Of a stretch of 19,586 nt of DNA, positions 3,725 to 17,387 are shown piece after piece. The stretch spans positions 1 to 19,586 of the forward strand of contig JAJYTX010000010.1 in NCBI GenBank assembly GCA_021792815.1, read 5' to 3'. Source of the stretch: Pseudomonadota bacterium (GTDB taxonomy: Bacteria; Pseudomonadota; Gammaproteobacteria; Steroidobacterales; Steroidobacteraceae). Position 1 is the first letter of the stretch; each line of letters starts with the position of its first letter. Position numbers and translations under genes: made by a program. A model generated the notes under the pieces. The model was not told the DNA's origin, searched no databases, and saw nothing but the letters and a program-made list of their open reading frames with translations.

Positions 3725-4404
3725 CAGGCGCGCAGCTCGCGCGCAAGCTCGCGCCGGGCGAAGTGCGTCAGCAGCGCCATCACGGCGATGGTGGCCACCA
3801 GGCCCGACCACAACAGAACGGTGCCCTGCCGTCCGACCTGCGCCTGGCCGCGGATCACCTCGGTGAGATTGGCGGCCGCCGTGCCGGCGTACACGTAGAG
3901 CAGGGTGCCCGGCAGCATGCCGATCCAGGAAGCGAGCAGGTAATCGCGCACCCGGACCGTGGTGATGCCGTAGGCATAGTTGAGCAGGCCATACGGGAAG
4001 AGCGGTGAGAGACGGGTGAGGAGCACGACCCAGAAACCATGGCGCGAGATGGCACGATCCAGAGCACGGAATTTCGGCCAGCGCCCGCTGCGCCGTTGAA
4101 TCCAGTCCCTGGCGATGCTCCGGCCAAGGAAGAATGCCGCCGCCGCCCCGAGCATGCTTCCGATCGACACCAGCACCAGCCCGCGGGCCAGCCCGAAGAG
4201 CACGCCCGCCGCGATCGTGAGCAGGGAATCGGGCAACAGCACCACCGCGGCGAAGGCGTAACAGAGCACAAACGGCAGCGATGCGGCCTCGCGCCAGGCC
4301 GCGACCCGGGCGAGCACCGTCCCGAGTCCATACTTCGCCAGCACCGCCGCGGCGGTGGCGCCAAGCAGAACCAGTCCGCCGGCGAGCGCGAGGCGAGCTT
4401 TCAC
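3724..4404 (-). CDS. TVP38/TMEM64 family membrane protein (VTT/DedA-like domain)
   Basis: A 226-residue inner-membrane protein with about six hydrophobic segments. The central VTT domain is clear: FAAVVLLPDSLLTIAAG, then LFGLARGLVLVSIGSMLGAA, and later LLTRLSPLFPYGLLNYAYG followed by SWIGMLPGTLLYVYAG. DedA/VTT-domain proteins are associated with lipid scrambling and membrane homeostasis; the role of this copy is not evident. Translation begins at a GTG (4404-4402), supported by a good Shine-Dalgarno GGAGG (plus-strand cctcc at 4413-4417) spaced 8 bases away. The stop overlaps the start codon of the TonB receptor gene, so the two are almost certainly one transcript. In other genomes TVP38 genes often accompany a MerA-like reductase and a TIGR04283 glycosyltransferase, both found here at 2-1198 on the other strand. 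Confidence 0.9.
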   Translation of the reverse strand: MKARLALAGGLVLLGATAAAVLAKYGLGTVLARVAAWREAASLPFVLCYAFAAVVLLPDSLLTIAAGVLFGLARGLVLVSIGSMLGAAAAFFLGRSIARDWIQRRSGRWPKFRALDRAISRHGFWVVLLTRLSPLFPYGLLNYAYGITTVRVRDYLLASWIGMLPGTLLYVYAGTAAANLTEVIRGQAQVGRQGTVLLWSGLVATIAVMALLTHFARRELARELRA

Positions 4405-4915
4405 CGCGGGCGCCTCCGGACGGAAAGTGCCCGGAACAGGCTCGCGGCCCGCTGGCGGTCAGGGCGGGCGCGCGTCGGCGCGGGCGTGGTGGTGTCCGGT
4501 GCCATTACCGTATGCGGCGGTGCTGCGGGGAGCGGTGTCGCGGCGGCCCCGACGGCGCCTGTTTTGAGGTCACTACGCATGGTCTGCTGTGCCGCGATCC
4601 TGGACTGAGACCGTCTCGGGCGCAAGATGATTGCGGGCACCGCTTCGGGCGCCGTCGACGCCTTCGGCCGCAGTCCGAGGGGGTGCGGGCGCACACTGTT
4701 GCCCCCCGCGAATTCCGGGCTGAGCGGCCGATGCCATCACCGGCGGCCGGTCGGGATCGGGCCGATCAGCGGACCGACGGCCGCGCAGGGTGCCTCAGCC
4801 TGTACGGCGCGCCCGGCATCCGCGCCGCGGCGCTGAGTCGAGCTCGAGACTCGATCGGTCCCGCGCTGCCGTACGGGCGGTCAACCGGACGACCGGTGCG
4901 CAGAATGGATCGCGG
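4405..4915. other. Non-coding stretch, about 510 bases
   Basis: I see no supportable gene between the TVP38 start and the Rid stop. Open frames exist on both strands, the longest intact one on the minus strand about 97 codons, but they are rich in Arg, Pro, Ala and Ser with no domain-like segments, as expected of chance frames in G+C-rich DNA. It should hold the promoter for the TVP38-TonB transcript, but I find no convincing -35/-10 pair. An imperfect GAGTC-N8-GACTC inverted repeat at 4835-4852, downstream of the Rid stop, has no following T-run and is weak as a terminator. Confidence 0.4.
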
Positions 4916-5320
4916 CTAGTCTACCGCCGCGGTTGCCTCGATCTCGATCAGGAACTCCGGCAGGGCAAGTGTGCTCACGCCGATGAACGTGTTGGGCGCC
5001 GGCAGCGTCTTGCCGTAGAACTGCGCGATTTCCCCGAGCACCGGGCCGAGCTTCTCGGGGGTGTGGTCGACCACATAGGTGCGAAGCCTCAGGATATCCG
5101 CCGGCGATGCGCCGGCGGCCGCAAGCACCGTGCGGATGTTGGCGAGGGCCTGGCGGGTCTGCGCGGCGAGATCGCCGGGACCGACCAGCTTGCCGTCCTT
5201 GTCCCAGGCGACCTGCCCGGCGAGGTGCAGCACGGAGCCGCTGCGCTGGCGTGCCGCGTGCGAAAAGCCGTAGCCGACGCTGTCGTAGAGTTCGGGAGGA
5301 TTGAGTTTGTCCGCGCGCAT
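4916..5320 (-). CDS. Rid family protein (RidA/YjgF/UK114-like)
   Basis: This 134-residue cytoplasmic protein has the chorismate-mutase-like Rid fold. Recognisable segments are LHLAGQVAWDKDGKLVGPGDLAAQ, QALANIRTVLAAAGASPADI and the C-terminal FLIEIEA. Classical RidA hydrolyses reactive enamine/imine intermediates such as 2-aminoacrylate, using a conserved Arg in the P-x-R segment to hold the substrate carboxylate. Here that position reads APNTFIGV, with Asn110 or Thr111 in place of Arg, so it belongs to a divergent Rid subgroup and 2-aminoacrylate deamination is doubtful. The ATG at 5320-5318 has a good GGAGAG ribosome-binding site 7 bases upstream (5328-5333). The gene lies 119 bases after the DapA-family gene on the same strand but has its own operator copy at 5402-5420. 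Context suggests it processes an imine made by the neighbouring dehydrogenase (inference). Confidence 0.9.
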   Translation of the reverse strand: MRADKLNPPELYDSVGYGFSHAARQRSGSVLHLAGQVAWDKDGKLVGPGDLAAQTRQALANIRTVLAAAGASPADILRLRTYVVDHTPEKLGPVLGEIAQFYGKTLPAPNTFIGVSTLALPEFLIEIEATAAVD

Positions 5321-5352
5321 CGCTGCACTCTCCGGTAAAGGGTCGTGCCGGC

Positions 5353-5381
5353 ATGCTCACGCCGGGAGCGGTCCGACTCAA
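5353..5381 (-). promoter_or_regulatory. Candidate promoter of the Rid gene
   Basis: On the minus strand, TTGAGT (5381-5376) is followed after 17 bases by GAGCAT (5358-5353). The -35 is fair and the -10 poor, as expected for an activator-dependent promoter. The -35 begins 20 bases after operator A, putting the operator centre at about -64 from the predicted start near 5347. Support comes mainly from this spacing, which repeats at two other promoters. Confidence 0.4.
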
Positions 5382-5401
5382 TGACTCGTGCGCGCCGACT
5401 T

Positions 5402-5420
5402 CGTTGCGTCTGACGCAACG
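5402..5420. promoter_or_regulatory. Operator A, copy 1 of a 19-bp inverted repeat (probable LysR-type regulator site)
   Basis: The sequence CGTTGCGTCTGACGCAACG has perfect 8-bp arms around a 3-bp centre. Its core GTTGC-N7-GCAAC recurs at 6445-6461 and 10420-10436 and contains the T-N11-A motif of LysR-type sites. It lies between the stop of the DapA-family gene and the Rid gene, about 80 bases upstream of the Rid start. No T-run follows on either strand, so it is not a normal terminator. Confidence 0.8.
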
Positions 5421-5439
5421 TAACCCGGGAGCCCAGCCT

Positions 5440-6363
5440 TCAATTCGGGAGCCGGCCGAGACGGCGCAGCGTGTCCCGGACCCGTGCGCGCCCTTCGGGG
5501 TCGAGCTCGAGAATCGGCGGGCGCGGATAGCCACCGGGCAGTCCCTGCGCGTTCAGCGCCTCCTTGAGGATCGCCTGCGCGGAGGCGAACCGGCCGACCA
5601 GCTTCTCGGTGAACCATTCCTTCATGAGCGTCCGGTCGCGCATCCCGCAGCGCAGCGCCGCCTCGAGGTCGCCGCGCCAGAGGTGATTGTAGAAATCCGG
5701 CTGATCGCGGCCGAGAACCGCGCCGGCGCCCATCGTGCCGTCACCGCCGTGGTGGCGCACGAGGGTGGCGCCGAGCTGATCCATGGCAAATCCGAACACC
5801 CGCAGCCGATCCTTGAGCGCAAAGAACGTTTCGATGAAGTGGTCGAATCGGCCGGTGGAGTGTTTGAGGGCGACGACGTTGTCGAGATCGGCGAGCCGTT
5901 CGAGCAGCGTTCGCGACATGTCGACATTGGTTCCCGGCGGCCAGTTGTACACGCAGATCGGCAGCGCGACGTGTCGGGAAACATGACTGTAGAAGGCGAA
6001 GATTTCCTCTTCGGTCGGAACGATATAGGGCGGCGGCGTGAGCAGTATGCCGTCGAACCCGCATTCGTGCGCCATGCGGGCGTATTCGATGGCCTGATCG
6101 GCGCCGTAGGCGTTGCAGCCCGCGATCAGCGTCCGCTTGCCCCGCAGTTGCCGGCCGGCGATGCGCAGCAGCGTCAGACGCTCCGCGCCGGAGAGACTGA
6201 ACCATTCGCCGGTGGTGCCGGCGACCACGATGCCGTGCATGCCTTCGGCGTCGAGCCATTCGAGGAGGCGGTGCAGACCGCGCTCGTCGAGGTCCCGCTC
6301 CCTGGTGAACGGTGTCGTGATGGCCGGAATGTAGCCGCGCCAGTCTACCGAGTTTCTGTCCAT
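5440..6363 (-). CDS. DapA (dihydrodipicolinate synthase) family lyase/deaminase
   Basis: A 307-residue TIM-barrel enzyme of the class I aldolase-type DapA/NanA family, which forms a Schiff base with 2-oxo acids. Family marks are the GTTGEWFSLS loop (residues 49-58), the Tyr of ICVYNWPPGTNVD (Tyr139) and the Schiff-base Lys of VVALKHSTG (Lys167), all present, so it should be active. True DapA usually lies outside such catabolic clusters. In hydroxyproline catabolism a DapA-family enzyme deaminates pyrroline-4-hydroxy-2-carboxylate and works next to a trimeric flavin dehydrogenase, as seen here, so a similar deaminase is the best guess. An aldolase for a 2-oxo acid is the alternative. It is transcribed divergently from lysR with a shared operator between them. 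The ATG at 6363 has only a weak GGAA upstream. Confidence 0.88.
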   Translation of the reverse strand: MDRNSVDWRGYIPAITTPFTRERDLDERGLHRLLEWLDAEGMHGIVVAGTTGEWFSLSGAERLTLLRIAGRQLRGKRTLIAGCNAYGADQAIEYARMAHECGFDGILLTPPPYIVPTEEEIFAFYSHVSRHVALPICVYNWPPGTNVDMSRTLLERLADLDNVVALKHSTGRFDHFIETFFALKDRLRVFGFAMDQLGATLVRHHGGDGTMGAGAVLGRDQPDFYNHLWRGDLEAALRCGMRDRTLMKEWFTEKLVGRFASAQAILKEALNAQGLPGGYPRPPILELDPEGRARVRDTLRRLGRLPN

Positions 6364-6393
6364 TGGCGTTCCGCTTCTCGAATGATCGGCGGC

Positions 6394-6423
6394 ATTCTAG
6401 GCGGCGGCGCCAATTTGTCACAA
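6394..6423 (-). promoter_or_regulatory. Promoter of the DapA-family gene
   Basis: On the minus strand, TTGTGA (6423-6418) and TAGAAT (6399-6394, five of six matches to the -10 consensus) are 18 bases apart. The predicted start is near 6387, giving a ~23-base leader. Operator B ends 20 bases upstream of the -35, so its centre is at about -66. The -35 overlaps the -35 of the divergent lysR promoter, within the small palindrome TTGTCACAA (6415-6423). Confidence 0.6.
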
Positions 6424-6443
6424 TGAGGGGGGCTGAGTATGAT
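6415..6443 (+). promoter_or_regulatory. Promoter of the lysR-dehydrogenase operon
   Basis: TTGTCA (6415-6420) and TATGAT (6438-6443) are exactly 17 bases apart, each matching the sigma-70 consensus at five of six bases. It is the best promoter in the window. Transcription should start at about 6449-6451, inside operator B, so a regulator bound there would block it (autorepression). Confidence 0.7.
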
Positions 6444-6462
6444 CGTTGCATGAAACGCAACA
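6444..6462. promoter_or_regulatory. Operator B, copy 2 of the inverted repeat, between divergent genes
   Basis: The sequence CGTTGCATGAAACGCAACA shares the GTTGC-N7-GCAAC core (6445-6461) with operators A and C. It lies on the predicted transcription start of lysR and at about -66 relative to the predicted start of the DapA-family gene. This is the classical divergent LysR arrangement: one site represses the regulator and activates the target. It also covers an in-frame ATG at 6450. Confidence 0.8.
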
Positions 6463-6479
6463 AAGTGCCCGGTGGCCCC

Positions 6480-7418
6480 ATGTCGAATCTCATCCTCACA
6501 GATGCGAAACTGTGCTACCTGGCCGAGGCGGCGGCGCTCGGCTCGATGCACGCGGCCGGCGAGAAGCTCGACGTTGCGGTCTCCTCGATCAGCCGGCAGA
6601 TCGCCCAGCTCGAGTCGCAACTCGGTCTGCCGCTCATCGAGCGCGGCAGGCGTTCGATCAAGTTGACACAGGCGGGGGAGATGGCGGTGCGGTACTACCG
6701 CGAAAGCGTCACGCAGCGGGAGACGCTGGTGTCGAGCATCCAGGCGTTGCGGGGCTTGCGTGCCGGCCAGGTCGAGCTCGCCGTCGGAGAGGGTTTCGTC
6801 AATGTCCTCTCGGCGCTGCTGCAGAGCTTCGCGGCGAGTCATCCGGGTCTGCGCATGTCGGTCAAGGTGGCCGGCACGCTCGAGGTGATGCGGCAGGTCC
6901 GCGACGACGAGGCGCACATCGGCCTGGCGTTTCACTCCCCGCCGGATCCGAAGCTCAACGTGCGCGCGACTTTCGCCCAGCCCATACGGCTCATCGCACA
7001 CCCGCGGCATCCGCTCTCGAGCAAGCCCTCCGTCACTCTGAGCGAGGTCGTGCAGCACCGGCTGTGCCTGCCCGAATCGAGCTTTCGGATCGGCCAGATG
7101 ATCAATCTCGCCGGTGAGCACGAGCGGGTGTCGCTCGATGCGCACATGAGCACCAATTCGCTGCACCTGCTGCGTGAGATGGCGAAATCGGGCATGTATG
7201 CCACGCTGCTGCCGGAGATCGCCGCCGCCACCGAGCTCGGTCGCGGGGAATTGACGGCCGTACCCATCGACAGTGCCGCGTTGCAGGATACGGCCCTCAC
7301 GGTGATCTGCCGTCTCGGGCGGACACTGCCGTCGGCGCCGGCGGCGTTCCTGCCGGTGCTCGAGGGCGGTCTGCGCGCGTGGCTCAAGAGACCGCGCATG
7401 GCGGGCAGGGAGAAATAG
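6480..7418 (+). CDS. LysR-type transcriptional regulator
   Basis: A 312-residue cytoplasmic DNA-binding regulator. The N-terminal winged helix-turn-helix is clear: TDAKLCYLAEAAALGSMHAA, VAVSSISRQIAQLESQLG, PLIERGRRSIKLTQAG. A linker helix and a two-lobed effector-binding domain (from about residue 90, QVELAVGEGFVNVL) follow. ATG 6480 is chosen because family members have only a few residues before the HTH and because it leaves a ~30-base leader after the predicted transcription start. GGTGG at 6471-6475 is a close ribosome-binding site. ATG 6450 is in frame and would give a leaderless message. The gene is divergent from the DapA-family gene and 6 bases ahead of the dehydrogenase beta gene, so it is probably co-transcribed with the dehydrogenase. 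It is the natural candidate to bind the three GTTGC-N7-GCAAC repeats. Confidence 0.92.
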   Translation: MSNLILTDAKLCYLAEAAALGSMHAAGEKLDVAVSSISRQIAQLESQLGLPLIERGRRSIKLTQAGEMAVRYYRESVTQRETLVSSIQALRGLRAGQVELAVGEGFVNVLSALLQSFAASHPGLRMSVKVAGTLEVMRQVRDDEAHIGLAFHSPPDPKLNVRATFAQPIRLIAHPRHPLSSKPSVTLSEVVQHRLCLPESSFRIGQMINLAGEHERVSLDAHMSTNSLHLLREMAKSGMYATLLPEIAAATELGRGELTAVPIDSAALQDTALTVICRLGRTLPSAPAAFLPVLEGGLRAWLKRPRMAGREK

Positions 7419-7424
7419 TCCGCC

Positions 7425-8630
7425 GTGAGCACGCGCTACGATGTGGCCGTCATCGGAGCCGGACTCGTCGGGTGTGCTGCGGCGTTCGAGCTCGGCCGCC
7501 GTCGCCGGCGCGTCGTGGTGCTCGACCAGGGGGAGGTCAATCGTGGCGCGTCGGGCCGCAATGCCGGCTCGCTGCACTTCCAGATCGAGCCGCGCATGCT
7601 CGAGCATGGAGGCGATCCCCGGCGCCTCGAGCAACTGATTCCGGTCAACCTTCAGGCGATCGAGGACTGGCGCCGCCTGCCGGCGCTGCTGCAGCGCGAA
7701 CTCGAGCTCGCGATGCATGGGGGACTGATGGTGGCCGAGACCCCCGCGGAGCGTGCGCTGCTCGCCCGGAAATGGGAGGTCGAGCAGCGCGGCGGCCTGC
7801 CTGTCAGGTTGCTCGAGGGTGCGGAGCTGCGCAGCCTGGCGCCCTACCTCGCCGATCAGGTGTGCTGCGCCAGCTATTGTCCTGCCGAGGGACATGCAAA
7901 CCCCCGGTTCGTGACTCCGGCCTATGCGGCCGCGGCGCGCCGGCTCGGCGCCGAGATCATTCCGGGCGCCCGTGTGCGGGCGCTCGAGGCACGGTCCGAG
8001 GGTTGGCGGGTACACGTCGAACGGATGAGGGAAGGCGGCGGCATCCCCGCGGCCTCGTGCCCGGTCGATGTGGAGGCGGTGCTGGTTGCCGCCGGCGCGT
8101 GGTCGACGGAGATCCTGGCGCCCTACGGCGTGCGTGTGCCGCTCGAGCCGGTTGCGCTCGGCATGAATGTGACGGAGCGGTGTATGCCCGTGGTGCATCA
8201 CCTGGTGCAGCATGTGGGCCAACGCCTGTCGGTCAAGCAGGTGGAAGCGGGCAACGTACTCATCGGCGGCGGCTGGCCGGCCTCCCTGCCGGCCAGCCCG
8301 GATCTCGGCCCCGATCCGCAGGTGCGACCGCGGGAGTCCGCGATGATCGGCAATGCCGCGATAGCGATTCACGTGGTGCCCGCACTCGCCGGGCTGCACC
8401 TGATCCGCACCTGGTGCGGAATCGCCTCGGTCTCTCCGGACCATCTGCCCGTGCTCGGCCCGGTCGCGGCGCTGCCGGGTGTGTTCATCGCCGCCGGTGA
8501 GTCTTCGTTTACATTGGGACCAACGTACGCCCGCCTCGTGAGCGAGCTCATCTGTCTCGGTCAGGCCTCGATGCCGCTTCATCTGTACCGGCCCAGCCGC
8601 TTTGAGCGCGCGGCCGATCGGAGCGCGTGA
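7425..8630 (+). CDS. FAD-dependent amino acid dehydrogenase, beta subunit (DAO family; D-hydroxyproline dehydrogenase/opine oxidase type)
   Basis: This 401-residue flavoprotein oxidises a C-N bond of an amino acid or secondary amine. The N-terminal FAD Rossmann motif is YDVAVIGAGLVGCAAAFELG (Gly11, Gly13, Gly16), followed by an acidic strand end (VVVLDQG) and GASGRNAGSLHFQ, a DAO-family FAD loop. VLVAAGAWS (about 219-227) and the C-terminal SVSPDHLPVLGP and GVFIAAGESSFTLGPTYA segments complete the family pattern. It starts with GTG at 7425, 6 bases after lysR, with GGGAG upstream. Its TGA overlaps the ATG of the gamma gene (TGATG at 8628-8632). With gamma and alpha it should form a heterotrimer or larger complex in which beta holds the active site. 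The substrate cannot be told from sequence; hydroxyproline, opines and other imino acids are options. Confidence 0.9.
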   Translation: MSTRYDVAVIGAGLVGCAAAFELGRRRRRVVVLDQGEVNRGASGRNAGSLHFQIEPRMLEHGGDPRRLEQLIPVNLQAIEDWRRLPALLQRELELAMHGGLMVAETPAERALLARKWEVEQRGGLPVRLLEGAELRSLAPYLADQVCCASYCPAEGHANPRFVTPAYAAAARRLGAEIIPGARVRALEARSEGWRVHVERMREGGGIPAASCPVDVEAVLVAAGAWSTEILAPYGVRVPLEPVALGMNVTERCMPVVHHLVQHVGQRLSVKQVEAGNVLIGGGWPASLPASPDLGPDPQVRPRESAMIGNAAIAIHVVPALAGLHLIRTWCGIASVSPDHLPVLGPVAALPGVFIAAGESSFTLGPTYARLVSELICLGQASMPLHLYRPSRFERAADRSA

Positions 8631-8968
8631 TGGGATTTCGCGTCCGTTCGGGCACGGCCCGCCCCCCGCCGATCACCTTCACCTTCGATGGTGTGCCGAT
8701 CGAGGCATATCCCGGCGAAACCCTGGCCGCGGCATTGATCGCGAACGACGTGCGCGGCTTTCGCCGTGACCTGCGCGGGGAACTGCGCGGACCCTATTGC
8801 AACATGGGTACCTGCTTCGAGTGCGTGCTCGAAGTGCGCGACCGGGCGGCCACGGGCAGCAGTGCTGCCGGTGCCTGGTACACCGTGCGGGCGTGCCTGA
8901 CGCGTGTCCAGGCGGGCCTCGAGGTGCGCTCCCGCAAGACGCCCGGGATCAGGGACCTGAGCGCATGA
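8630..8968 (+). CDS. (2Fe-2S)-binding gamma subunit of the amino acid dehydrogenase
   Basis: A 112-residue ferredoxin-like subunit that passes electrons between the flavin sites of the complex. Four cysteines sit in the expected pattern: Cys57-x4-Cys62-x2-Cys65 in GPYCNMGTCFECVLEV and a distal Cys89 in VRACLT. The N-terminal half (FTFDGVPIEAYPGETLAAAL) is the usual beta-grasp ferredoxin start. ATG 8630 overlaps the beta stop. A GTG one codon earlier (8627) is also in frame. The stop (TGA 8966-8968) overlaps the ATG of alpha as ATGA. This small-subunit type accompanies D-hydroxyproline dehydrogenase, opine oxidase and HcnABC-like complexes. Hydrogen cyanide synthase is less likely because of the DapA-family and Rid neighbours. 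Confidence 0.9.
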   Translation: MGFRVRSGTARPPPITFTFDGVPIEAYPGETLAAALIANDVRGFRRDLRGELRGPYCNMGTCFECVLEVRDRAATGSSAAGAWYTVRACLTRVQAGLEVRSRKTPGIRDLSA

Positions 8969-10428
8969 TTCCGGGCGAGACGTGTGACCTGGCGATCGTC
9001 GGCGGCGGCCCGGCCGGTCTTTCCGCGGCACTCGTCGCGAACGAGTGCGGCCTCGACGTGCGTCTGCTCGATGAACAGCCGCGCCTCGGAGGGCAGATCT
9101 ACCGCCAGCCACCCGTCGGCTTCCGGGTGGATGCGTGGCTGGCGGGCAGGGTCTATCGCCGCGGCCGGGCGCTGCTCGAACGCGCCGAGCGTCTGGCGAC
9201 GCTCCGCCATGTCGCCGAAGCGACCGCGTGGGGACTGTTTCCGCCCGAGCCGGCGGCAGGGGACGCCGGCCATCGCCTGCTGTTCGACCAGGCGGGCCTC
9301 CCGGGAGCACTGCAGGCGCGTCAGGTGCTGCTGGCGACGGGATGCTACGAGATGCCCGTGCCTTTTCCCGGCTGGCAGCGGCCCGGGGTCATGAGCGCAG
9401 GTGGGATTCAGACCCTGCTCAAGAGCCAGCGCGTCGCGGCCGGCACCCGGGTGGTGCTGGCCGGCAGCCACCCCTTGCTGCTCGTCGCGGCGGACCAGTT
9501 GCTCGAGGCGGGAGTGCGTGTCGCCGCCGTCGTGTTCAGTCAATCGGCGCATGCTGTCGCCCGATTGCTCGCATCGCCCGCGCCGCTCCTCGGCGCGTTC
9601 CCGCAGCTGCTGCACGCCGCACATTGCCTGGGGCGCATCCGTCGCGCCCGGGTGCCGCTGATGGTGGGTCGGGTGGTCGCGGAGGCGCTGGGCTCGGACG
9701 CCGTCGAAGCCGTGCGAGTCTGCCGCAGCGACTTTCGCGGCGATGCGCAGCACATCGCCTGCGACACGCTGGGGCTGTGCTACGGGTTCCTCGCATCTTC
9801 GGAACTGGCGCGGCAGGCCGGCGCGCACTGCGCCTGGGAATCCGGCAGCGGCTGGGTCGTCACGAGCGACGAGTTCATGCGCACGAGCGTTGCGCACCTC
9901 AGCGTCGCCGGAGAACTCGCCGGGGTGGCCGGCGCGGAGGCCGCGGCGCTGTCGGGGGAAATCGCCGCGCTCGGGATCGCGGCGGATGCGGGCCGCCTCG
10001 GCGCAGCCGAGGCGTCGGCGCGCGCCGCGCCGCTGCGCCGCAGACTGCGGATGCTGCGCCGGTTCGCGGCCGTGCTCGCTGAACTCGCGGCCCCGCCGCC
10101 GCCGCTGCTCGCCCGTCTGGCGACCCCTGACACGCTCCTGTGCCGTTGCGAAGACGTCACAGTCGCTGCCCTCGCGGACGCGCTGCGCACCGAGTCGACT
10201 GTTGAAAGCGCGAGCAGCGCCAAGCTGCTGACGCGCGTTGGAATGGGCATGTGCCAGGGACGCATGTGCGAGCTCGCGGTGCGGCGCCTGATCGGCGAAT
10301 ACCGGGGGCGCGCAATCGAGCAGATCCGCGGTTACGAGCCGCGGCCGCCGGTGAAGCCCATCCGGCTGGCCGCGCTCGCCGGCCGGGCGATCAACGCCTC
10401 GCGCGGCCCAGACGGTCGCGTTGCGTGA
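8965..10428 (+). CDS. FAD/NAD(P)-binding alpha subunit of the amino acid dehydrogenase, with C-terminal BFD-like [2Fe-2S] domain
   Basis: This 487-residue flavoprotein is the electron-transfer partner of the complex. The FAD Rossmann motif is CDLAIVGGGPAGLSAALVA near the N-terminus, with LDEQPRLGGQIYRQP after it. A second dinucleotide fold begins at RVVLAGSHPLLLVAADQLL. The C-terminal domain has Cys393-x-Cys395 (LLCRCEDV) and Cys430-x4-Cys435 (GMCQGRMCELAV), the bacterioferritin-associated-ferredoxin type cluster site of octopine/nopaline oxidase A and D-hydroxyproline dehydrogenase alpha. ATG 8965 overlaps the gamma stop. The last codons and the stop lie inside operator C (10419-10437), so the end of this gene doubles as a regulatory site for the next block. 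The enzyme probably passes electrons to the respiratory chain rather than oxygen (family inference). Confidence 0.9.
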   Translation: MIPGETCDLAIVGGGPAGLSAALVANECGLDVRLLDEQPRLGGQIYRQPPVGFRVDAWLAGRVYRRGRALLERAERLATLRHVAEATAWGLFPPEPAAGDAGHRLLFDQAGLPGALQARQVLLATGCYEMPVPFPGWQRPGVMSAGGIQTLLKSQRVAAGTRVVLAGSHPLLLVAADQLLEAGVRVAAVVFSQSAHAVARLLASPAPLLGAFPQLLHAAHCLGRIRRARVPLMVGRVVAEALGSDAVEAVRVCRSDFRGDAQHIACDTLGLCYGFLASSELARQAGAHCAWESGSGWVVTSDEFMRTSVAHLSVAGELAGVAGAEAAALSGEIAALGIAADAGRLGAAEASARAAPLRRRLRMLRRFAAVLAELAAPPPPLLARLATPDTLLCRCEDVTVAALADALRTESTVESASSAKLLTRVGMGMCQGRMCELAVRRLIGEYRGRAIEQIRGYEPRPPVKPIRLAALAGRAINASRGPDGRVA

Positions 10429-10437
10429 AACGCAACG
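10419..10437. promoter_or_regulatory. Operator C, copy 3 of the inverted repeat
   Basis: The sequence CGTTGCGTGAAACGCAACG has perfect 8-bp arms around GAA and the same GTTGC-N7-GCAAC core as operators A and B. It spans the final codons and TGA of the dehydrogenase alpha gene, 19 bases upstream of a candidate -35 for the VOC-receptor-transporter block. Confidence 0.8.
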
Positions 10438-10456
10438 ATCCCGGTCAGCTCTGTTA

Positions 10457-10484
10457 TTGAGCGATCCCGCCCGCCGTGCAACAT
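10457..10484 (+). promoter_or_regulatory. Candidate promoter of the VOC-TonB-MFS block
   Basis: TTGAGC (10457-10462) and CAACAT (10479-10484) are 16 bases apart, with a predicted start near 10491. Operator C's centre is then at about -63, and the ATTGAG before the spacer matches the Rid promoter. A consensus -35 TTGACA at 10497-10502 is an alternative, but its best -10 (TGCAAA, 10520-10525) is poor and would place the start inside the gene. Confidence 0.4.
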
Positions 10485-10509
10485 TGACGCGCAAGGTTGA
10501 CAAATCGGG

Positions 10510-11034
10510 GTGCGACTCGTGCAAACTGCTCGAACGGCAATCCGCTTCCGCGGCCTGGACCACATCGGAATCACCGTGCCCGATCTCGAGAAGGCGATCG
10601 CCTTCTACCTGGAGGCATTCGGCGGCCAAGTAGTCTATCGCATGGGTCCGCTCGATTCGCGCGACATGCCGCAGGAAGACGGCCGGGACTGGACCGCGGA
10701 TTTCATCGACGTGCCCGATGCGCGGCTGAGCTTCGCCGGGGTGCGCCTCGCCGGCGAGCTGCTGCTCGAGATCTACCAGTACGAGCGTCCGGCGGGCGCG
10801 GCGCGGCCGCCGCGCAACTGCGATCCCGGCGGGCATCACATCGCACTGCGTGTCGATGACGTCGAGGCTGCCGCCGCGCACCTGCGCGCCAAGGGCTGCA
10901 GGCTGATGCGCGGACCGATCGTCGTGCCGGGCGGGCCGTTGCTCGGCTCGCGCTCGTGGTATTTCGCGGACCCGTGGGACAACTACTTCGAGCTGATGGA
11001 ATACGAGCGCATGGCCTTCATGAGCGAAGGTTAG
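10510..11034 (+). CDS. VOC superfamily (glyoxalase/bleomycin resistance/dioxygenase-like) protein
   Basis: A 174-residue cytoplasmic metalloprotein candidate made of two beta-alpha-beta-beta-beta modules. Predicted metal ligands, in the classical order, are His18 (GLDHIGITV), Glu87 (LLLEIYQY), His110 (GHHIALRV) and Glu161 (YFELMEY), so it should bind a divalent metal. VOC enzymes include glutathione lyases, epimerases and dioxygenases; the reaction here is unknown. The start is a GTG. 10510 is listed, while GTG 10519 has GGGG 8 bases upstream and is equally possible; no ATG precedes the domain. It follows the dehydrogenase alpha gene by 81 bases, which carry operator C and a candidate promoter, and precedes a TonB receptor by 87 bases. 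Co-regulation suggests a step in the same pathway. Confidence 0.85.
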   Translation: MRLVQTARTAIRFRGLDHIGITVPDLEKAIAFYLEAFGGQVVYRMGPLDSRDMPQEDGRDWTADFIDVPDARLSFAGVRLAGELLLEIYQYERPAGAARPPRNCDPGGHHIALRVDDVEAAAAHLRAKGCRLMRGPIVVPGGPLLGSRSWYFADPWDNYFELMEYERMAFMSEG

Positions 11035-11087
11035 GCGGCAGAAGCGGCGGGATCGACCGGAAATCAGCGAACCGAACAACGATGAAC

Positions 11088-11104
11088 CGCCTCGGTGCGA
11101 GGCG
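11088..11104. repeat. Inverted repeat / leader stem-loop before the second TonB receptor
   Basis: CGCCTCG-GTG-CGAGGCG has perfect 7-bp arms with a 3-base loop and ends 17 bases before the receptor ATG, just upstream of its G-rich ribosome-binding site. It has no T-run. It could stabilise or process the mRNA between the VOC and receptor genes, or be a chance G+C-rich hairpin. Confidence 0.4.
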
Positions 11105-11121
11105 CCATCCGGGGGGGAACC

Positions 11122-13518
11122 ATGTCGGCTGTATACGTAAAAATTGCCACGAATCCGCTGCTGCGGACGCTGCGGCGGCAGGCGCGCCTCGGCGCGGCAA
11201 TGCTCGGAGTGTGCGGTGTTGCCGCGCATGGAGCGGCATTCGCGCAGGACGGCAGTCCGGCGGCCGGTCACGGCGCGGCGCGACTCGCTGCGAACCAGCT
11301 GCAGGAGGTGATCGTGACCGCGGAGCGGCGCGCGACGACGGTGCAGAGAACGCCGATGAGCATTACCGCGGTGACCGGCCGTTCGCTGCAGGAGCAGGGT
11401 CTTTCGAACATGCTGAGCCTTGCGCAGCGGGTGCCCGGCATTTCCTTCAAGACGGCCGGGCCGGGTCAGACCGAATACGAAATGCGCGGTCTCACCTCGA
11501 GCGGCGGCGAGTCGCCGACGGTCGGCGTGTATCTCGATGGCGTCATATTGACTCCGGCCGCATTCGCGTTGAACGGCAAGACCGTCGTCGATCCGAACAT
11601 GTACGATCTGAATCGCGTCGAGGTGCTGCGGGGCCCGCAGGGCACGCTGTACGGCGCCGGCTCGATGGGCGGCACGATCCGGTTCGAGACCAACCCGCCC
11701 GATCCGAAAAAATTCTCTGGGTCGGCCGAGGCCGTCCTCTCGGACACCGCGAGCGGCGGCGGATTCAATCACACCGAGAATGCGATGCTGAACCTGCCGC
11801 TCGGCGACGGCCGCGCGGCTCTCAGGCTGGTCGGCACGGAGAAGACAGTCGACGGCTGGATCGACCGCATCGTGCTCGATCCGTTTCCGCCGGAGGTCGC
11901 CAACAGCACGGCGCGCGGTGACGTCGCGCAAGCGGCGCCCAGCACGGTCATCCATCATTCCAACACGGAGCTGCTGCGCGGCGGACGCGCGGAGCTGCTG
12001 CTTCGGCCGACGGACAGAATGACGATCGATGCGCTGGTCATGCACCAGCGCATATCGCAGGACGGATCCAGTACGATCGACAGTCCGCCGCTCAACGAGG
12101 CGCACTATCAGCCGTTCAACGTCGCGGAGCCGTTCTCCGATACGTTCAACCTGTTTGCACTGTCGGCCCGGTACGATTTCGAGTCGTTCCAGGTGAAGTC
12201 GGTGACGGGTTACTGGGATCGGGCACAGAACCAGACCCAGGACATCTCCGAAGCGATGCAGTTCTACATCGGCGGTTTCTTTGGCCCGCCGGCGAGCTTC
12301 CCGTACTCGAGCACCCAGACGGTCACCGAGGGTGGCGCCACGTTCTATGGACTGGGGGCGGCCTCGATCAGCGAAAACGAGAGCACGCACCAGTTCAGCG
12401 AGGAGCTGCGGCTCGTATCCAGTGGCAATGGCCGCCTGCACTGGGTTGCGGGCGCCTACTACAGTCACTACGGCGTCGTCGATCATGTCTTTTCCTATTA
12501 TCCCGTTTCGACCACGGGCTTCGATGCCAACTTCGGCACCAATAATCTCGCCGACAATCATCGCGCGCTCGGCCTCGACCAGTATGCGCTGTACGGACAG
12601 GCGACCTACAAGCTGCCGCGCCACCTGCAGGCGACGCTGGGTGCGCGCTACTACACCTACCACAGCGATTCACAGACCAGCGTCAGCGGCGTGTCGGCGA
12701 GCGGCCCCACATCGACGCTGTTCGGCCTTGCGCAGAACTCCGGGGTGACACCGAGTTTCACCCTGGCATACGTCCACGACGAAACGACGACGGTCTACGG
12801 GACGATTTCCAAGGGGTTCCGTCCGGGCGGTCCGAATTCGCCGATCCCGGTGCCGCCGTGCGCGGCCGCCGCGCCGAAGCAATTCGGTCCGGACAGCGTC
12901 TGGAATTACGAGCTCGGCGCCAAGCAGCGTGCGCTCGGTAACCGCCTCAGCGTCTCGGGGGACGTCTATTACGAGAAGTGGACAGGGGTCCAGCAGGAGG
13001 TTTCGCCCGCCTGCGGCTTCACATTTACGGCCAATGCCGGCACGGCGCACGTGGAAGGCGCGGAGTTCCAGCTGAACTGGATCGTCTTCCCGGGGCTCAT
13101 GTTCACTCAGAACGCCGGCTATACCAATGCCTATAACGCACAGACGATTGCGGCCGCGAACGTGGTCGCCGGCCAGAGGCTGCTCGATGTACCGCGCGTG
13201 ACGGCCAACAGCAGTCTCACCTATCGGGTTCCGGTGGGCGCCAACCTGGATGTCATGACGAGCATCAACAACAGCTACGTGGGCTCGATGCAGGACATAA
13301 CCTTCTACCGCAATACCCTGCCGGCGTACGATATCGTCACCCTGCGCGGCGGTGTGGAGGGCAATCGCTGGTCGGCGTATCTGTTTGTCGACAACCTGGG
13401 GAACACCAAGGCACTGCTCGGCAATACCACGGCGCTTTCGGCGAACATCTCCATTCTCAATCGTGTCGCGGTCAACCAGCCGAGGACGATCGGCGTCGAT
13501 CTCAGCTATCATTTCTGA
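11122..13518 (+). CDS. TonB-dependent outer-membrane receptor (second copy)
   Basis: A 798-residue outer-membrane transporter. A signal peptide (basic LRTLRRQARLG, hydrophobic AAMLGVCGVAAHG) ends at about Ala41, in AFAQDG. The mature N-terminus has LQEVIVTAERR, then the plug (about 60-180) with RTPMSITAVTG, YEMRGLTSSGG and RVEVLRGPQGTLYGAGSMGG. The barrel follows and ends in LSYHF with terminal Phe. ATG 11122 is chosen for its strong GGGGGGAA ribosome-binding site and proper signal peptide; a start 27 bases earlier is possible but adds nothing. It lies between a VOC gene and an MFS gene on the same strand, which suggests it is the outer-membrane entry for the compound handled by this island. 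The ligand is not predictable; the receptor is only generally similar to the one at 1241-3724. Confidence 0.93.
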   Translation: MSAVYVKIATNPLLRTLRRQARLGAAMLGVCGVAAHGAAFAQDGSPAAGHGAARLAANQLQEVIVTAERRATTVQRTPMSITAVTGRSLQEQGLSNMLSLAQRVPGISFKTAGPGQTEYEMRGLTSSGGESPTVGVYLDGVILTPAAFALNGKTVVDPNMYDLNRVEVLRGPQGTLYGAGSMGGTIRFETNPPDPKKFSGSAEAVLSDTASGGGFNHTENAMLNLPLGDGRAALRLVGTEKTVDGWIDRIVLDPFPPEVANSTARGDVAQAAPSTVIHHSNTELLRGGRAELLLRPTDRMTIDALVMHQRISQDGSSTIDSPPLNEAHYQPFNVAEPFSDTFNLFALSARYDFESFQVKSVTGYWDRAQNQTQDISEAMQFYIGGFFGPPASFPYSSTQTVTEGGATFYGLGAASISENESTHQFSEELRLVSSGNGRLHWVAGAYYSHYGVVDHVFSYYPVSTTGFDANFGTNNLADNHRALGLDQYALYGQATYKLPRHLQATLGARYYTYHSDSQTSVSGVSASGPTSTLFGLAQNSGVTPSFTLAYVHDETTTVYGTISKGFRPGGPNSPIPVPPCAAAAPKQFGPDSVWNYELGAKQRALGNRLSVSGDVYYEKWTGVQQEVSPACGFTFTANAGTAHVEGAEFQLNWIVFPGLMFTQNAGYTNAYNAQTIAAANVVAGQRLLDVPRVTANSSLTYRVPVGANLDVMTSINNSYVGSMQDITFYRNTLPAYDIVTLRGGVEGNRWSAYLFVDNLGNTKALLGNTTALSANISILNRVAVNQPRTIGVDLSYHF

Positions 13519-13530
13519 GGCTGACGCCAC

Positions 13531-14880
13531 ATGGGGGTGCCGGGCGGCGGCATGAGGTGTGACGCCGCGCGTGGCGCGGCGAGCGAGGAGGCCGGCTATC
13601 CGCCGCGGCCGTATGCGTGGGCGGTGGTGGCGATTCTGGTCGCCACCGCCGTGCTCTCGTATACGGACCGACAGGTGTTGAGCCTGCTGGTCGACCCGAT
13701 CCGCAGGGACCTCGGCATCAGCGACCTGCAGGTGAGCCTGCTGCTCGGCTCGGCGTTCGCGGTGATCTACGGAGTGGCGGGCATCCCCTTCGGGTGGCTC
13801 GCCGACCGGGTCTCGAGGCGCAACCTGATTTTCGCCGGCAGCCTCATCTGGGGCATCGGAACGGTCAGCTGCGCGTACGCGGGCAGCTTCGCGCAGCTGT
13901 TCGCGGCCCGGGTCGTCGTCGGGCTCGGAGAGTCCGTGTTGTCGCCGGCCGCCATCTCGCTCATCAGTGACTACTTCCCGCCGAGCCGACGCGGGCTCGC
14001 GGTGGGTTCCTTCCTCAGCGGCATCGCGATCGGCCAGGGCGCGGCGATCCTGATCGGGGGCGTGGCGCTGCACCTGGTCGAGGCGGGCACGCTCGCCTCC
14101 ACCCCGCTCGGGACGCTCGCGCCGTGGCGCCTCGTGTTGCTCATCATCGGAGCGCCGGCGCTCGTGTGGTCGCTGGCGCTGTTCCTGGTCCGTGAGCCCG
14201 CCCGGCATGGCACGCGGACGATCGCGGGGGCGGCACAGGCGGCCCGGCCCGGCATCGCCTCGATCCTGCGCGGACCGGTGGTGCCGATGTATGCGGTGGT
14301 GGCGGCCGCTTCCCTGGTCGACAATGCGGTCGGCGCCTGGGCGCCGACGCTGCTCATCCGCAGCTTTCACCTGAACGCCGCCTCTGTCGGCCTCGCGCTC
14401 GGGCTGAGACTCGTGGTCGGCTTCGGGGGCGGGGTGCTCCTCGGCGGGTGGCTTTCCGACCGGGCCGGTCGCGGCGGGGGCTGGCCCCGCAAGCTGCTCG
14501 TGTGCCTGGGCGTGAGCCTGCTCATCCTGCCGACCTCGTGGATGATCGACGGGGCGAGCGCGAATCGGGTGATGCTCGCGGTTCCCGCGTACTTTCTGCT
14601 GTCGGGCACCTTTACCGCCTGTGGCTTCTCGGCGATTCTCGATGTGGTGCCCGGGGAACGGCGGGGGCTCGCGATGGCGGTCAGTTTCTTCCTCAACGTT
14701 GCCGTCGGCGCCGGTCTCGGGCCCACGATGGTCGCGCTCGCGAGCGCGCATGTCTTCGGCAGCCAGGCAGGCCTCGGGGCGCCGATCGCGCTGACGGCGA
14801 CCTTCGGCTATGGCCTCAATGCCGCGGTACTGATTGCGGCGCTGATCCTGTTCCGGCGCGACCGCCGCACCCGCGCCTGA
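13531..14880 (+). CDS. MFS transporter, spinster-like
   Basis: A 449-residue inner-membrane permease with about 12 hydrophobic segments. The first is WAVVAILVATAVLSYTDRQV, and the MFS signature loop between TM2 and TM3 is GWLADRVSRRNLIFAGSLIWG. A second-half counterpart is GGWLSDRAGRGGGWPRKLL. The pattern of SYTDRQVLSLL, then LGISDLQVSLL resembles spinster-like MFS proteins, which move varied organic acids and lipids in bacteria. It starts 12 bases after the TonB receptor stop (GAGG overlapping that stop is a likely ribosome-binding site), so they are one operon: outer-membrane then inner-membrane transport of the same compound. ATG 13552 is an alternative start; the extra 7 residues are Gly-rich and non-hydrophobic. 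Import is inferred from context; export is not excluded. Confidence 0.9.
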   Translation: MGVPGGGMRCDAARGAASEEAGYPPRPYAWAVVAILVATAVLSYTDRQVLSLLVDPIRRDLGISDLQVSLLLGSAFAVIYGVAGIPFGWLADRVSRRNLIFAGSLIWGIGTVSCAYAGSFAQLFAARVVVGLGESVLSPAAISLISDYFPPSRRGLAVGSFLSGIAIGQGAAILIGGVALHLVEAGTLASTPLGTLAPWRLVLLIIGAPALVWSLALFLVREPARHGTRTIAGAAQAARPGIASILRGPVVPMYAVVAAASLVDNAVGAWAPTLLIRSFHLNAASVGLALGLRLVVGFGGGVLLGGWLSDRAGRGGGWPRKLLVCLGVSLLILPTSWMIDGASANRVMLAVPAYFLLSGTFTACGFSAILDVVPGERRGLAMAVSFFLNVAVGAGLGPTMVALASAHVFGSQAGLGAPIALTATFGYGLNAAVLIAALILFRRDRRTRA

Positions 14881-14963: not shown

Positions 14964-15005
14964 TGCTTGCCGGTCGCCACGGGCTGTCCACGGGGAGAAC
15001 AGCGG

Positions 15006-16466
15006 ATGAATCCGATCGTCGCCCTGCCGGCGCGCGACCTCGCCGCGTCGATCGCGCGCCGGGAGTTCGCGTGCGTCGAGGTCATCAGCGCCTTTCTGAG
15101 TCAGATCGAGGAGCACAATCCCCGCGCCAACGCGATCGTCGCCCTGCGCGAGCGCGACGTGCTGCTGGCCGAAGCCCGCGCCCAGGACGAGCAGATCGCG
15201 GCCGGCGTGCGTCCGGGTCCCCTGGGAGGGCTGCCGCTCGCCGTCAAGGACCTCGCCGAAGTCGCCGGCATCCGCACCACGATGGGCTCGCTGCTGTTGC
15301 GTGATCATGTGCCGCAGGCCGAAGGCATCATGGTCGGACGCCTGCGCAAAGCCGGCGCGATTCTGATAGGCAAGAGCAACGTTCCGGAGTTCGGTCTCGG
15401 CTCGCATACCTACAACGCCGTGTACGGCGCCACGACCAATGCCTACGATCCGACCCGGTCCGCCGGCGGCAGCAGCGGCGGCGCGGCGGTGGCGCTCGCG
15501 CTCAGAATGGTTCCGGTCGCCGACGGCTCGGACTTCGGCGGCAGCCTGCGCAATCCGGCGGCCTGGAACAACGTCTTCGGCTTGCGCCCGAGCATCGGTC
15601 GCGTTCCGCAGGAAGGCGCCGAACAGTGGATCCCCAACATGGGAGTCACCGGCCCGATGGCGCGCACGGTGGCGGATCTGGCGCTGCTGTTGTCGGTGCA
15701 GGCCGGGTTCGATCGCCGTTCACCGCTGTCGCTCGAGACCGATACGCGCAGTTATGTCGGGCCGCTGGACGCCGACGTCAAAGGCATGCGGCTTGCGTGG
15801 CTGGGCGACTGGAACCGCCAGGTGCCGCACGAGCCTGCGGTGCTGCAGGTCTGCGCCAGCGCGCTCCCGGTGTTCGAGGACCTGGGCTGCATCGTCGAGG
15901 CGGCGCATCCGGCCATGGACGTCGAGCCGGTATGGCAGGCGGTGCTGACGTTGCGCAGCTGGCTGCTTGCGCCGAAGCTGCTGCCGCTCGCGGATGATCC
16001 GGCTGCCCGCCCGCTTCTGGGTGCCCAGGCGCTGTGGGAAGCGGACAACGCCCGCGGGTTGAGCGGCAGCCGGATCATGCGCGCGTCCGAAGTCCGCACG
16101 GCCTTCTCGCTGCGGATCGAACGGCTGTTCGAGCGCTACGATTTCCTGCTGATGCCCGCGGCGCAGACCTTCCCGTTCCCGGTGCAGGAGCATTGGCCGC
16201 GGCAGGTGGCCGGGCGCGAGATGCGCACTTACCACGAGTGGATGCTGGGCAATCTGCTCATCACCATGACGGGACTGCCGTCGCTCGCGGTGCCGGCGGG
16301 ATTCAGCGCCGCGGGTCTGCCGGCCGGGATTCAGATCATCGGCCGGAACCGTGAGGAGCTCGCCTGCCTGCGCATGGCGCACGCCTACGAGAAGGCACGG
16401 GCCTCGGTCATCGGTCGGTTGCCCGATGCGCTGCGCCCGGCCGCGCGCAGCTCAGCGGCGCGCTGA
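15006..16466 (+). CDS. Amidase-signature family hydrolase
   Basis: A 486-residue cytoplasmic enzyme that hydrolyses an amide bond through a Ser-cisSer-Lys triad. All three residues are visible with the family spacing: Lys81 in LPLAVKDL, Ser156 in the SAGGSSGG loop, and the nucleophile Ser180 in GSDFGGSLRNPA. The lysine to cis-serine distance is 75 residues and cis-serine to serine is 24. Residues after about 200 (NMGVTGPMARTVADLALLL) continue the amidase pattern. ATG 15006 has GGGGAG 8 bases upstream. It follows the MFS gene by 125 bases containing a palindrome, and overlaps the malonate decarboxylase gene mdcH tail-to-tail by 15 bases. Substrate unknown. It could open the imported compound, or, given mdc next door, yield malonate from a malonic amide, as malonamidases of this family do (inference). 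Confidence 0.92.
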   Translation: MNPIVALPARDLAASIARREFACVEVISAFLSQIEEHNPRANAIVALRERDVLLAEARAQDEQIAAGVRPGPLGGLPLAVKDLAEVAGIRTTMGSLLLRDHVPQAEGIMVGRLRKAGAILIGKSNVPEFGLGSHTYNAVYGATTNAYDPTRSAGGSSGGAAVALALRMVPVADGSDFGGSLRNPAAWNNVFGLRPSIGRVPQEGAEQWIPNMGVTGPMARTVADLALLLSVQAGFDRRSPLSLETDTRSYVGPLDADVKGMRLAWLGDWNRQVPHEPAVLQVCASALPVFEDLGCIVEAAHPAMDVEPVWQAVLTLRSWLLAPKLLPLADDPAARPLLGAQALWEADNARGLSGSRIMRASEVRTAFSLRIERLFERYDFLLMPAAQTFPFPVQEHWPRQVAGREMRTYHEWMLGNLLITMTGLPSLAVPAGFSAAGLPAGIQIIGRNREELACLRMAHAYEKARASVIGRLPDALRPAARSSAAR

Positions 16467-17387
16467 AACGACCTCGTTCACCCACTGGACGATGCCGTCG
16501 GCGCCGGCAAAGTCCTCGGCGCTTCTGATGGGCGCATCGGGAAACACGCGGGTGAGCATGTCGGCCAGTGCCCGACCCGGGCCGAGCTCGAGGAAGGCGG
16601 TTGCGCCGTGCTCGCGGGCGGCCTCGAGACACTGCGGCCATTCGATCGTTGCGGCAATTTGCCGGCTCAACGTATCGACATGCTCCTCGAGCGTACGCGG
16701 CAGCGTGCCGTTCAGGCCGTCAAGCAGGGTGATGCCGCGGCGGGGCGCCACCGGGCGGGCGATTTCGATGGCTGCACGCAGCAGCGGGACTGCCGGCGCG
16801 AACCGCGAAGTGTGCGACGCCACGAAAATCGGCAGCCAGGAAAAGTGGCGGGCGCCAGCCGCCAGGGCCGCATCCCGAAAGCCTTCCAGAGCATCCGCCG
16901 GACCGGCGACGATGCACACGGCGCCTGGATTGACGATGGCGAGTTCCACGCCGAGCCGATGCGCGAGCGTCTCGACCGACTGTCGTGCCAGGCCTTGTAC
17001 GACTGCCATCCGATCGCGTTCGTCGCCGAGCTGGTCCATCAGTTCGGCGCGCCGCGCGGTGAGCGACAGCGCCGCGTCGGACTGCAGAATCCCGGCAATG
17101 GACCATGCGGCCAGCTGGCCGACGCTGTAACCGAGCACGAGCAGGCGTTGCGGCACCACGTCGCGGATGACCCGGTGGGTCGCGAGTGCCGTCGTGACAC
17201 ACAGGATCTGCGCCGCCCGGTTGCGTCTCATGCCGTCGAGATCGGTGGACGCGAGCCAGTCGCGCGGATCGGCGCCGAGTACGCGCGCAGCCATGGCAAA
17301 CACGGGCTCGGCGGCCGACTGCGAGCGGGTCAGCCGGAACATGTCCGCATGCTGATGACCCTGTCCCGAGCAGATCAGAGCCAGCAT
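16452..17387 (-). CDS. mdcH: Malonate decarboxylase malonyl-CoA:ACP transacylase, epsilon subunit (MdcH)
   Basis: A 311-residue FabD-like acyltransferase. In malonate decarboxylase it loads malonyl from malonyl-CoA onto the special acyl-carrier subunit to start the catalytic cycle. The N-terminus LICSGQGHQHADMF is typical of MdcH. The nucleophile is Ser88 in LGYSVGQLAAWS (GxSxG) and the partner His192 is in FVASHTSRF. ATG 17387 is chosen because the conserved SGQGHQ start follows at once, with GGGGGAG immediately upstream. It overlaps the end of mdcB by 13 bases and is last in this operon segment. The long upstream extension of the frame (to 17501) lies inside mdcB and is not real. Confidence 0.92.
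   Translation of the reverse strand: MLALICSGQGHQHADMFRLTRSQSAAEPVFAMAARVLGADPRDWLASTDLDGMRRNRAAQILCVTTALATHRVIRDVVPQRLLVLGYSVGQLAAWSIAGILQSDAALSLTARRAELMDQLGDERDRMAVVQGLARQSVETLAHRLGVELAIVNPGAVCIVAGPADALEGFRDAALAAGARHFSWLPIFVASHTSRFAPAVPLLRAAIEIARPVAPRRGITLLDGLNGTLPRTLEEHVDTLSRQIAATIEWPQCLEAAREHGATAFLELGPGRALADMLTRVFPDAPIRSAEDFAGADGIVQWVNEVVSARR

Follow-up and report, generated by a model that had tools for sequence, protein, structure and literature searches.

A conserved GTTGC-N7-GCAAC palindrome as the putative operator of a LysR-type regulator in a presumed catabolic gene island of a proteobacterium

The 19,586-base stretch analysed here, referred to as the window (contig JAJYTX010000010.1 of the Steroidobacteraceae assembly GCA_021792815.1), carries a putative catabolic gene island in which the palindrome GTTGC-N7-GCAAC occurs three times, as operators A, B and C (Table 1). 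From sequence comparison we consider it very probable that the three palindromes are recognised by the island's own LysR-type regulator (lysR, 6480-7418), which would activate rid, the dapA-family gene (dapA) and the VOC gene from about position -65. That the palindrome is a LysR operator is strongly supported by comparison with related loci. The sites, their conservation upstream of related genes, their constant spacing and their polarity are observed; binding by this LysR, the inducer, the sign of control and the transcripts are inferred. In the proposed mechanism, LysR would bind each palindrome near -65, where 20–21 nt separate the inner edge of the palindrome from the TTG of the presumed -35 element, and, in the presence of an inducer (probably the substrate or an intermediate of the pathway), would activate the rid, dapA and VOC promoters. 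LysR bound at site B would at the same time repress lysR and the dehydrogenase genes behind it.

The three copies of GTTGC-N7-GCAAC are located at 5403-5419 (A), 6445-6461 (B) and 10420-10436 (C), and three copies occurred in none of 200 dinucleotide shuffles of the window (mean 0.03). The extended 19-mer CGTTGCRT-N3-AYGCAACG is matched by A and C without mismatch and by B with one mismatch, and the rest of the window has no match with up to three mismatches; at this tolerance three matches also arise in one of the 200 shuffles (mean 0.47). By eye, the arms are complementary at 8/8 positions in A and C, and at 6/8 in B. The only other GTTGC/GCAAC pair with a spacer of 0–15 bases has a spacer of 9 at 1472, within the first TonB-receptor gene. 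In addition, the T-N11-A core of recognition sites for LysR-type transcriptional regulators (LTTRs), here T-GCRTNNNACGC-A, is present in all three copies. A preliminary description of this DNA had reported three copies and no other with a 7-base spacer, perfect 8-bp arms in A and C, and the T-N11-A motif, and the whole-window scan agrees with it on each point; its placement of every copy at a gene boundary holds for the intergenic operators A and B, but operator C overlaps the end of the SoxA-like gene, whose stop codon (10426-10428) falls at the centre of the operator, so that 8 of the 17 operator bases are non-coding. An upstream ATG of lysR (6450) falls within operator B. Several LysR orthologues begin at the residue equivalent to 6480, and with this start operator B would stand in front of lysR. 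The distance from operator centre to start codon is 91 bp for A and rid, 90 bp for B and dapA, 82 bp for C and VOC (GTG start), and 27 bp for B and lysR.

To place the site among relatives, the LysR protein was searched in one genome per species, and the best 80 among the matches listed, at 32–49 % identity, were kept as loci. The exact site lies at -200..+30 of the estimated lysR start in 34 of the 80 loci, against 0.50 expected from its rate elsewhere in the same loci, and a site with at most one mismatch in 55; spacers of 3–6 and 8–13 bases are found near lysR in none of the 80. As a control, the other LTTR-like genes of the same loci have the exact site in 0/34 and the site with at most one mismatch in 1/34 cases. 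The motif does, then, co-occur with relatives of this LysR, the point on which the preliminary description had wanted an answer. The loci with a site (at most one mismatch) come from Pseudomonas, Sphingomonadales, Brevundimonas, Woeseiaceae, Roseobacteraceae, Comamonadaceae, Azorhizobium and others. We also weighed that the operator belongs to some other regulator, such as one of the GntR, IclR or MarR type, that is encoded elsewhere and has lysR merely among its targets. GTTGC-N7-GCAAC is a generic dyad to which LysR binding is here a prediction, and in 17 of the 80 loci the LysR relative has neither a site near lysR nor a dapA gene, which also counts against our own reading. Yet the site accompanies this LysR clade in different families and beside different neighbour genes, the core and the position near -65 are those of LTTR sites, the TTG described below stands solely on the side away from lysR, and no other regulator is encoded among the 17 window proteins scanned with Pfam (positions 1-502 and 4405-4915 lie outside that scan); we judge a foreign regulator to be improbable.

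The genes that the site precedes were counted, for sites with at most one mismatch and no more than 260 bp upstream, in the 28 of 80 loci that hold a dapA relative, which also contain DAO (27), SoxA-like (27), Rid (26), VOC (23) and Fer2 (22) genes. The site is located upstream of dapA in 22/28, of VOC in 22/23 and of lysR in 20/28 loci, whereas it precedes DAO in 0/27, the SoxA-like gene in 0/27 and Fer2 in 1/22. For rid the count is 2/26, from two Roseobacteraceae loci in which rid is divergent to lysR. Four loci (L007, L008, L011 and L013) lack the divergent arrangement of lysR and dapA, and in these the site precedes dapA and not lysR. This distribution, with the site before dapA and VOC but not before DAO and the SoxA-like gene, indicates that a site identifies the gene with which a unit begins. 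DAO lies directly downstream of dapA in 25 of 27 loci, and downstream of VOC and Rid in two Woeseiaceae loci, so that a promoter of the activated type stands upstream of the dehydrogenase genes wherever the site is present; the gene order of the window was not seen among these loci. In a Pseudomonas locus (L036:6284-9858), a LysR relative and its site face genes for a 3-hydroxyisobutyrate-dehydrogenase-like protein, an aldehyde dehydrogenase and an M20 peptidase; here the same operator is attached to a different pathway.

The direction of the site is marked by a TTG triplet. At the dapA and VOC promoters with a site, TTG is found exactly 21 nt past the site in 31 of 44 cases (next-best offset, 8) and, after removal of near-copies, in 22 of 30 (next-best offset, 7). 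Of the 55 sites near lysR, 37 have this TTG at 21 nt on the flank that points away from lysR, and none has it on the flank that points toward lysR; without near-copies the figures are 19/28 and 0/33. The dapA-facing sites are shared between the lysR-near count and the dapA/VOC promoter count. All 29 remaining exact sites of the 80 loci, which were not used to derive the rule, have TTG at 21 nt on one side only in 21 cases and on both sides in none. Eleven genes on the TTG side of these were scanned, and they encode six amidohydrolases, a DUF885 protein, two TonB receptors, a hydantoinase and one protein without Pfam match. Amidohydrolases, a DUF885 protein and a hydantoinase/oxoprolinase are seen downstream of further operator copies at L070:12691-13989, L005:14657-15967, L005:17568-19400 and L002:11142-13178. 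In the window, the TTG offset is 21 nt at A (rid side), 21 nt at B (dapA side) and 20 nt at C (VOC side), and the opposite sides have none at 20 or 21 nt; operators A, B and C accordingly point at rid, dapA and VOC.

As predicted from the sequence, the 21-nt geometry is that of an activator centred near -65. A scan of 4800-11200 for sigma-70-like promoters gave three matches, all at site B (0.3 expected in shuffles), one for lysR and two, overlapping each other, for dapA; the predicted dapA and lysR promoters overlap. The centre of operator B is at about -66 relative to the predicted start of dapA transcription (prediction only). Judged by this predicted dapA promoter and by the TTG at 21 nt in relatives, the operators would lie near -65 of their targets, the usual place of a LysR activator. 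The conserved (A)TTG at 21 nt could be either the -35 hexamer or an LTTR half-site, i.e., a second, weaker site near -35. On the lysR side, operator B starts directly after the predicted -10 hexamer, over the expected transcription start, and because of this overlap LysR would hold down lysR together with the dehydrogenase genes. This arrangement, and the position of most Pseudomonas sites about 22 bp before the estimated lysR start, would also fit sites that serve mainly repression or autoregulation, with pathway genes that are not LysR-activated. That reading we regard as unlikely, since the 21-nt TTG is seen on the flank that points away from lysR (37/55) and never on the other, a placement suited to action at about -65 of the divergent promoter and not to blocking that promoter.

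The dehydrogenase genes extend over 7425-10428, separated from lysR by 6 bases and then overlapping one another, and without an operator upstream; with no site of their own and no TTG on the lysR side of B, they would be coupled only through lysR autoregulation on a common transcript. The uptake block (TonB receptor and MFS transporter) would be controlled from operator C, to go by the gene order behind it. The single LysR regulon claimed in the preliminary description is upheld by the conserved sites before dapA, VOC and lysR relatives, and it is limited by the dehydrogenase genes, which lack a site, and by operator B, which points at dapA.

The distribution across whole genomes was counted in six relatives, where the loose pattern has 7, 7, 10, 9, 6 and 18 copies per genome and the reversed control 5, 9, 14, 10, 17 and 20. 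With counts so similar to the control, the operator pattern is not enriched genome-wide. The copies within this locus make up 3 of 7 in Brevundimonas, 3 of 6 in Novosphingobium and 2 of 7 in Blastomonas; the two Woeseiaceae genomes, with 10 and 9 copies, and the Pseudomonas genome, with 18, have one copy each in the locus. The 6–18 copies per genome are what might speak for palindromes that arose by chance or belong to a dispersed repeat, a reading to which we attach almost no weight, as it is already contradicted by the expected number in the window (0.03 copies) and by the conservation upstream of related genes.

Overlapping samples of further genomes were also searched. LysR was run, with E up to 1e-70, against 274 genomes from one class and 250 from one order, and dapA, with E up to 1e-95, against 369 from the class and 398 from the phylum. 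The two LysR samples brought no closer orthologues, and each dapA sample brought one new locus, L103 and L105 (dapA 58 %, LysR 40 %). These were found independently of the LysR search. In each, TTG lies 21 nt from the site toward dapA and is missing at that distance in the opposite direction; L105 has the site at one mismatch and L103 only at two. A search of viral contigs gave one irrelevant relative. Near orthologues of LysR are known as proteins, 34 being listed at 59–99 % identity, one of them labelled Steroidobacteraceae. Ten were read by eye: in P0003, P0004, P0017, P0019, P0028 and P0030, whose records start upstream of the usual start, the N-terminal residues are compatible with codons that spell GTTGC-N7-GCAAC at the expected place, and P0001 begins within the putative encoded site. 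Taken from the residues alone, with the codons unseen, such an encoded site is suggestive only.

Several points weigh against the regulon as proposed. The promoter scan gave no sigma-70-like match at A or C between 4800 and 11200, and the dehydrogenase genes carry no operator of their own in the window. A site with at most one mismatch near lysR is missing from 25 of the 80 loci (26 under a slightly different start estimate); dapA is present in 8 of these 25, and the exact site is upstream of dapA instead in 4 of the 8. It is likewise missing upstream of dapA in 6 of the 28 dapA loci, and the TTG rule is broken at 8 of the 29 further sites. The site label requires 10 changes on the tree, so that the site was gained or lost several times, and the counts are not independent, since close Pseudomonas relatives account for many of the loci as well as for many of the 34 control genes. 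The footprint is based on relatives at 32–49 % identity together with the N-termini of near orthologues, three of which (P0011, P0013 and P0023, of the ten read) show no encoded site.

Table 1. Operators, promoter elements and genes of the island in the window
Feature	Position	Strand	Remarks
Operator A	5402..5420	-	Perfect 8-bp arms; reads toward rid; TTG 21 nt beyond, on rid side only
Operator B	6444..6462	-	Between divergent dapA and lysR; TTG side faces dapA
Operator C	10419..10437	+	Perfect 8-bp arms; reads toward VOC; TTG 20 nt beyond, on VOC side
TTG of presumed rid -35 element	5379..5381	-	21 nt past operator A; no promoter-scan match here
Predicted dapA promoter	6394..6423	-	TTGTGA-18-TAGAAT; overlapping second reading GTGACA-16-TAGAAT; promoter scan
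Predicted lysR promoter	6415..6443	+	TTGTCA-17-TATGAT; promoter scan
TTG of presumed VOC -35 element	10457..10459	+	20 nt past operator C; no promoter-scan match here
rid	4916..5320	-	Rid-family protein (PF01042) without the deaminase arginine
dapA-family lyase gene	5440..6363	-	PF00701; Schiff-base Lys kept, substrate Arg of true dihydrodipicolinate synthase absent
lysR	6480..7418	+	LysR-type regulator (HTH_1, LysR_substrate)
DAO-fold subunit gene	7425..8630	+	FAD amine/amino acid dehydrogenase subunit; no own operator
[2Fe-2S] subunit gene	8627..8968	+	Fer2_4
SoxA-like subunit gene	8965..10428	+	FAD/BFD subunit; stop codon within operator C
VOC gene	10510..11034	+	Glyoxalase-fold protein; first gene after operator C
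TonB-dependent receptor gene	11095..13518	+	Presumed on VOC transcript
MFS transporter gene	13531..14880	+	Presumed on VOC transcript
Amidase gene	14985..16466	+	PF01425; possibly on VOC transcript

The gene order is VTT(-), rid(-), dapA-family(-), lysR(+), DAO(+), Fer2_4(+), SoxA-like(+), VOC(+), TonB receptor(+), MFS(+), amidase(+) and the malonate decarboxylase genes(-). The LysR protein has both domains of its family, PF00126 (3.8e-16) and PF03466 (5.9e-36). The best solved relative of the DAO subunit is chain B of 1y56; for the SoxA-like subunit, sarcosine oxidase alpha chains come first and chain A of 1y56 third. 1y56 is a complex of the proline-dehydrogenase type. The DapA-fold protein reads YNWPPG where 4i7u has YNIPPR, placing a glycine at the position of the substrate arginine, and it scores 143.5 bits against the NCBIfam dapA equivalog, below the cut-off of 206.15; for these two reasons it is probably not a dihydrodipicolinate synthase (DHDPS). 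Among 29 aligned rows the motif is PPG in 26 and PRG in 3, and the Schiff-base lysine is kept in all 29. The window Rid protein reads PAPNT where 2dyy reads PAR and so lacks the catalytic arginine (Arg105/107), as do the 27 aligned relatives in that column; in the Rid proteins of L043, L069 and L073 an arginine is located two columns earlier. Hydrolysis of the imine by Rid was considered as a step and marked down on account of this missing arginine. Arginine-less Rid groups are described as being of unknown function in PMC4433059.

In the pathway that we propose, an amide- or peptide-bound substrate would be imported and hydrolysed, the three-subunit FAD/[2Fe-2S] dehydrogenase would oxidise the freed amino compound, giving an imine, and the product would be cleaved or deaminated by the DapA-fold lyase, with the Rid and VOC proteins working on intermediates. 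An amide-bound amino compound is the most likely class of substrate, because amide-bond hydrolases recur among the targets: the amidase behind operator C, by gene order, and the amidohydrolases, DUF885 protein and hydantoinase in relatives. The cluster could instead be the known trans-4-hydroxyproline route, in which a DAAO-type oxidase and a DHDPS-type deaminase act together, here placed under a LysR, and the 1y56 relatives of the DAO and SoxA-like subunits agree with this. The oxidase and lyase also come from the same superfamilies as those of the hydroxyproline cluster described in PMC4113996; against that cluster, however, the Pfam-scanned window proteins include neither the epimerase (PF05544) nor an aldehyde dehydrogenase, and Rid, VOC, amidase and TonB receptor are present. 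Of ten relatives' genomes, only four contain PF05544 above the cut-off, which makes the canonical hydroxyproline route unlikely, and in two of the four, G525 and G526, it is on a different contig from the cluster; we give this alternative little chance.

The kind of system, a LysR activator with its operator, is well known. GcvA, MetR, OxyR and IlvY (PMC5002191), and MmsR (PMC6441110), are LysR-type activators with a divergent target promoter, and as described there they have in common with the window a regulator divergent from its target, overlapping promoters, a distal T-N11-A-like palindrome and autoregulation. Unlike these, the window combines GTTGC-N7-GCAAC with a TTG at 21 nt and has three separate promoters on a catabolic island. 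CutR of Mycobacterium JC1 (PMC12609908) shares a single inverted repeat near -60 of the target and a related copy before the regulator gene, but its repeat is TTAAG-n6-CTTAA with T-n12-A in place of GTTGC-N7-GCAAC with T-N11-A. On the enzyme side, the dad locus of Pseudomonas aeruginosa (DadA and DadY; PMC9714295) likewise joins a FAD amino acid dehydrogenase to a Rid protein, and RidA/Rid3 genes generally adjoin FAD amine oxidase genes (PMC4433059). According to these two sources, DadY is a Rid2 protein and RidA/Rid3 have the catalytic arginine, which the Rid protein here lacks; moreover the dad regulator DadR is of the AsnC type (PMC9714295), whereas a LysR and a DapA-fold lyase within the block are found here.

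No description of this operator, its direction mark, the regulon, its effector or the pathway was recognised in the literature searched, whose coverage was partial, with subscription journals mostly outside it. The nutrient-breakdown pathway is probably undescribed. Tentatively, and a little short of an even chance for all parts together, we suggest that a single LysR activator, acting through the palindrome with a TTG exactly 21 nt away, would govern a catabolic regulon that is widespread in proteobacteria and has not been described, turning on amide/peptide hydrolysis, outer-membrane uptake, a three-subunit FAD/[2Fe-2S] amine dehydrogenase, a DapA-fold lyase and an arginine-less Rid protein. 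If true, this would provide the first testable catabolic role for Rid proteins of function-unknown groups. The conserved membership of arginine-less Rid proteins would make the function of such proteins (PMC4433059) accessible to experiment in genera represented here by named strains, for example Brevundimonas and Sphingomonas. The operator and its direction mark would also be a simple rule for finding the targets of this LysR clade, and hence a parts list of the pathway, to which the rule adds amidohydrolases, the DUF885 protein, TonB receptors and hydantoinase in relatives.

Beyond the island, malonate decarboxylase genes (mdcE, mdcG, CitG/MdcB-like and MdcH-like acyltransferase) adjoin it, without an operator, at 16452-19582 on the minus strand. 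On the other flank are a second TonB receptor (1241-3811) and a VTT-domain protein (3724-4404), with no operator upstream, whose genes overlap as called.

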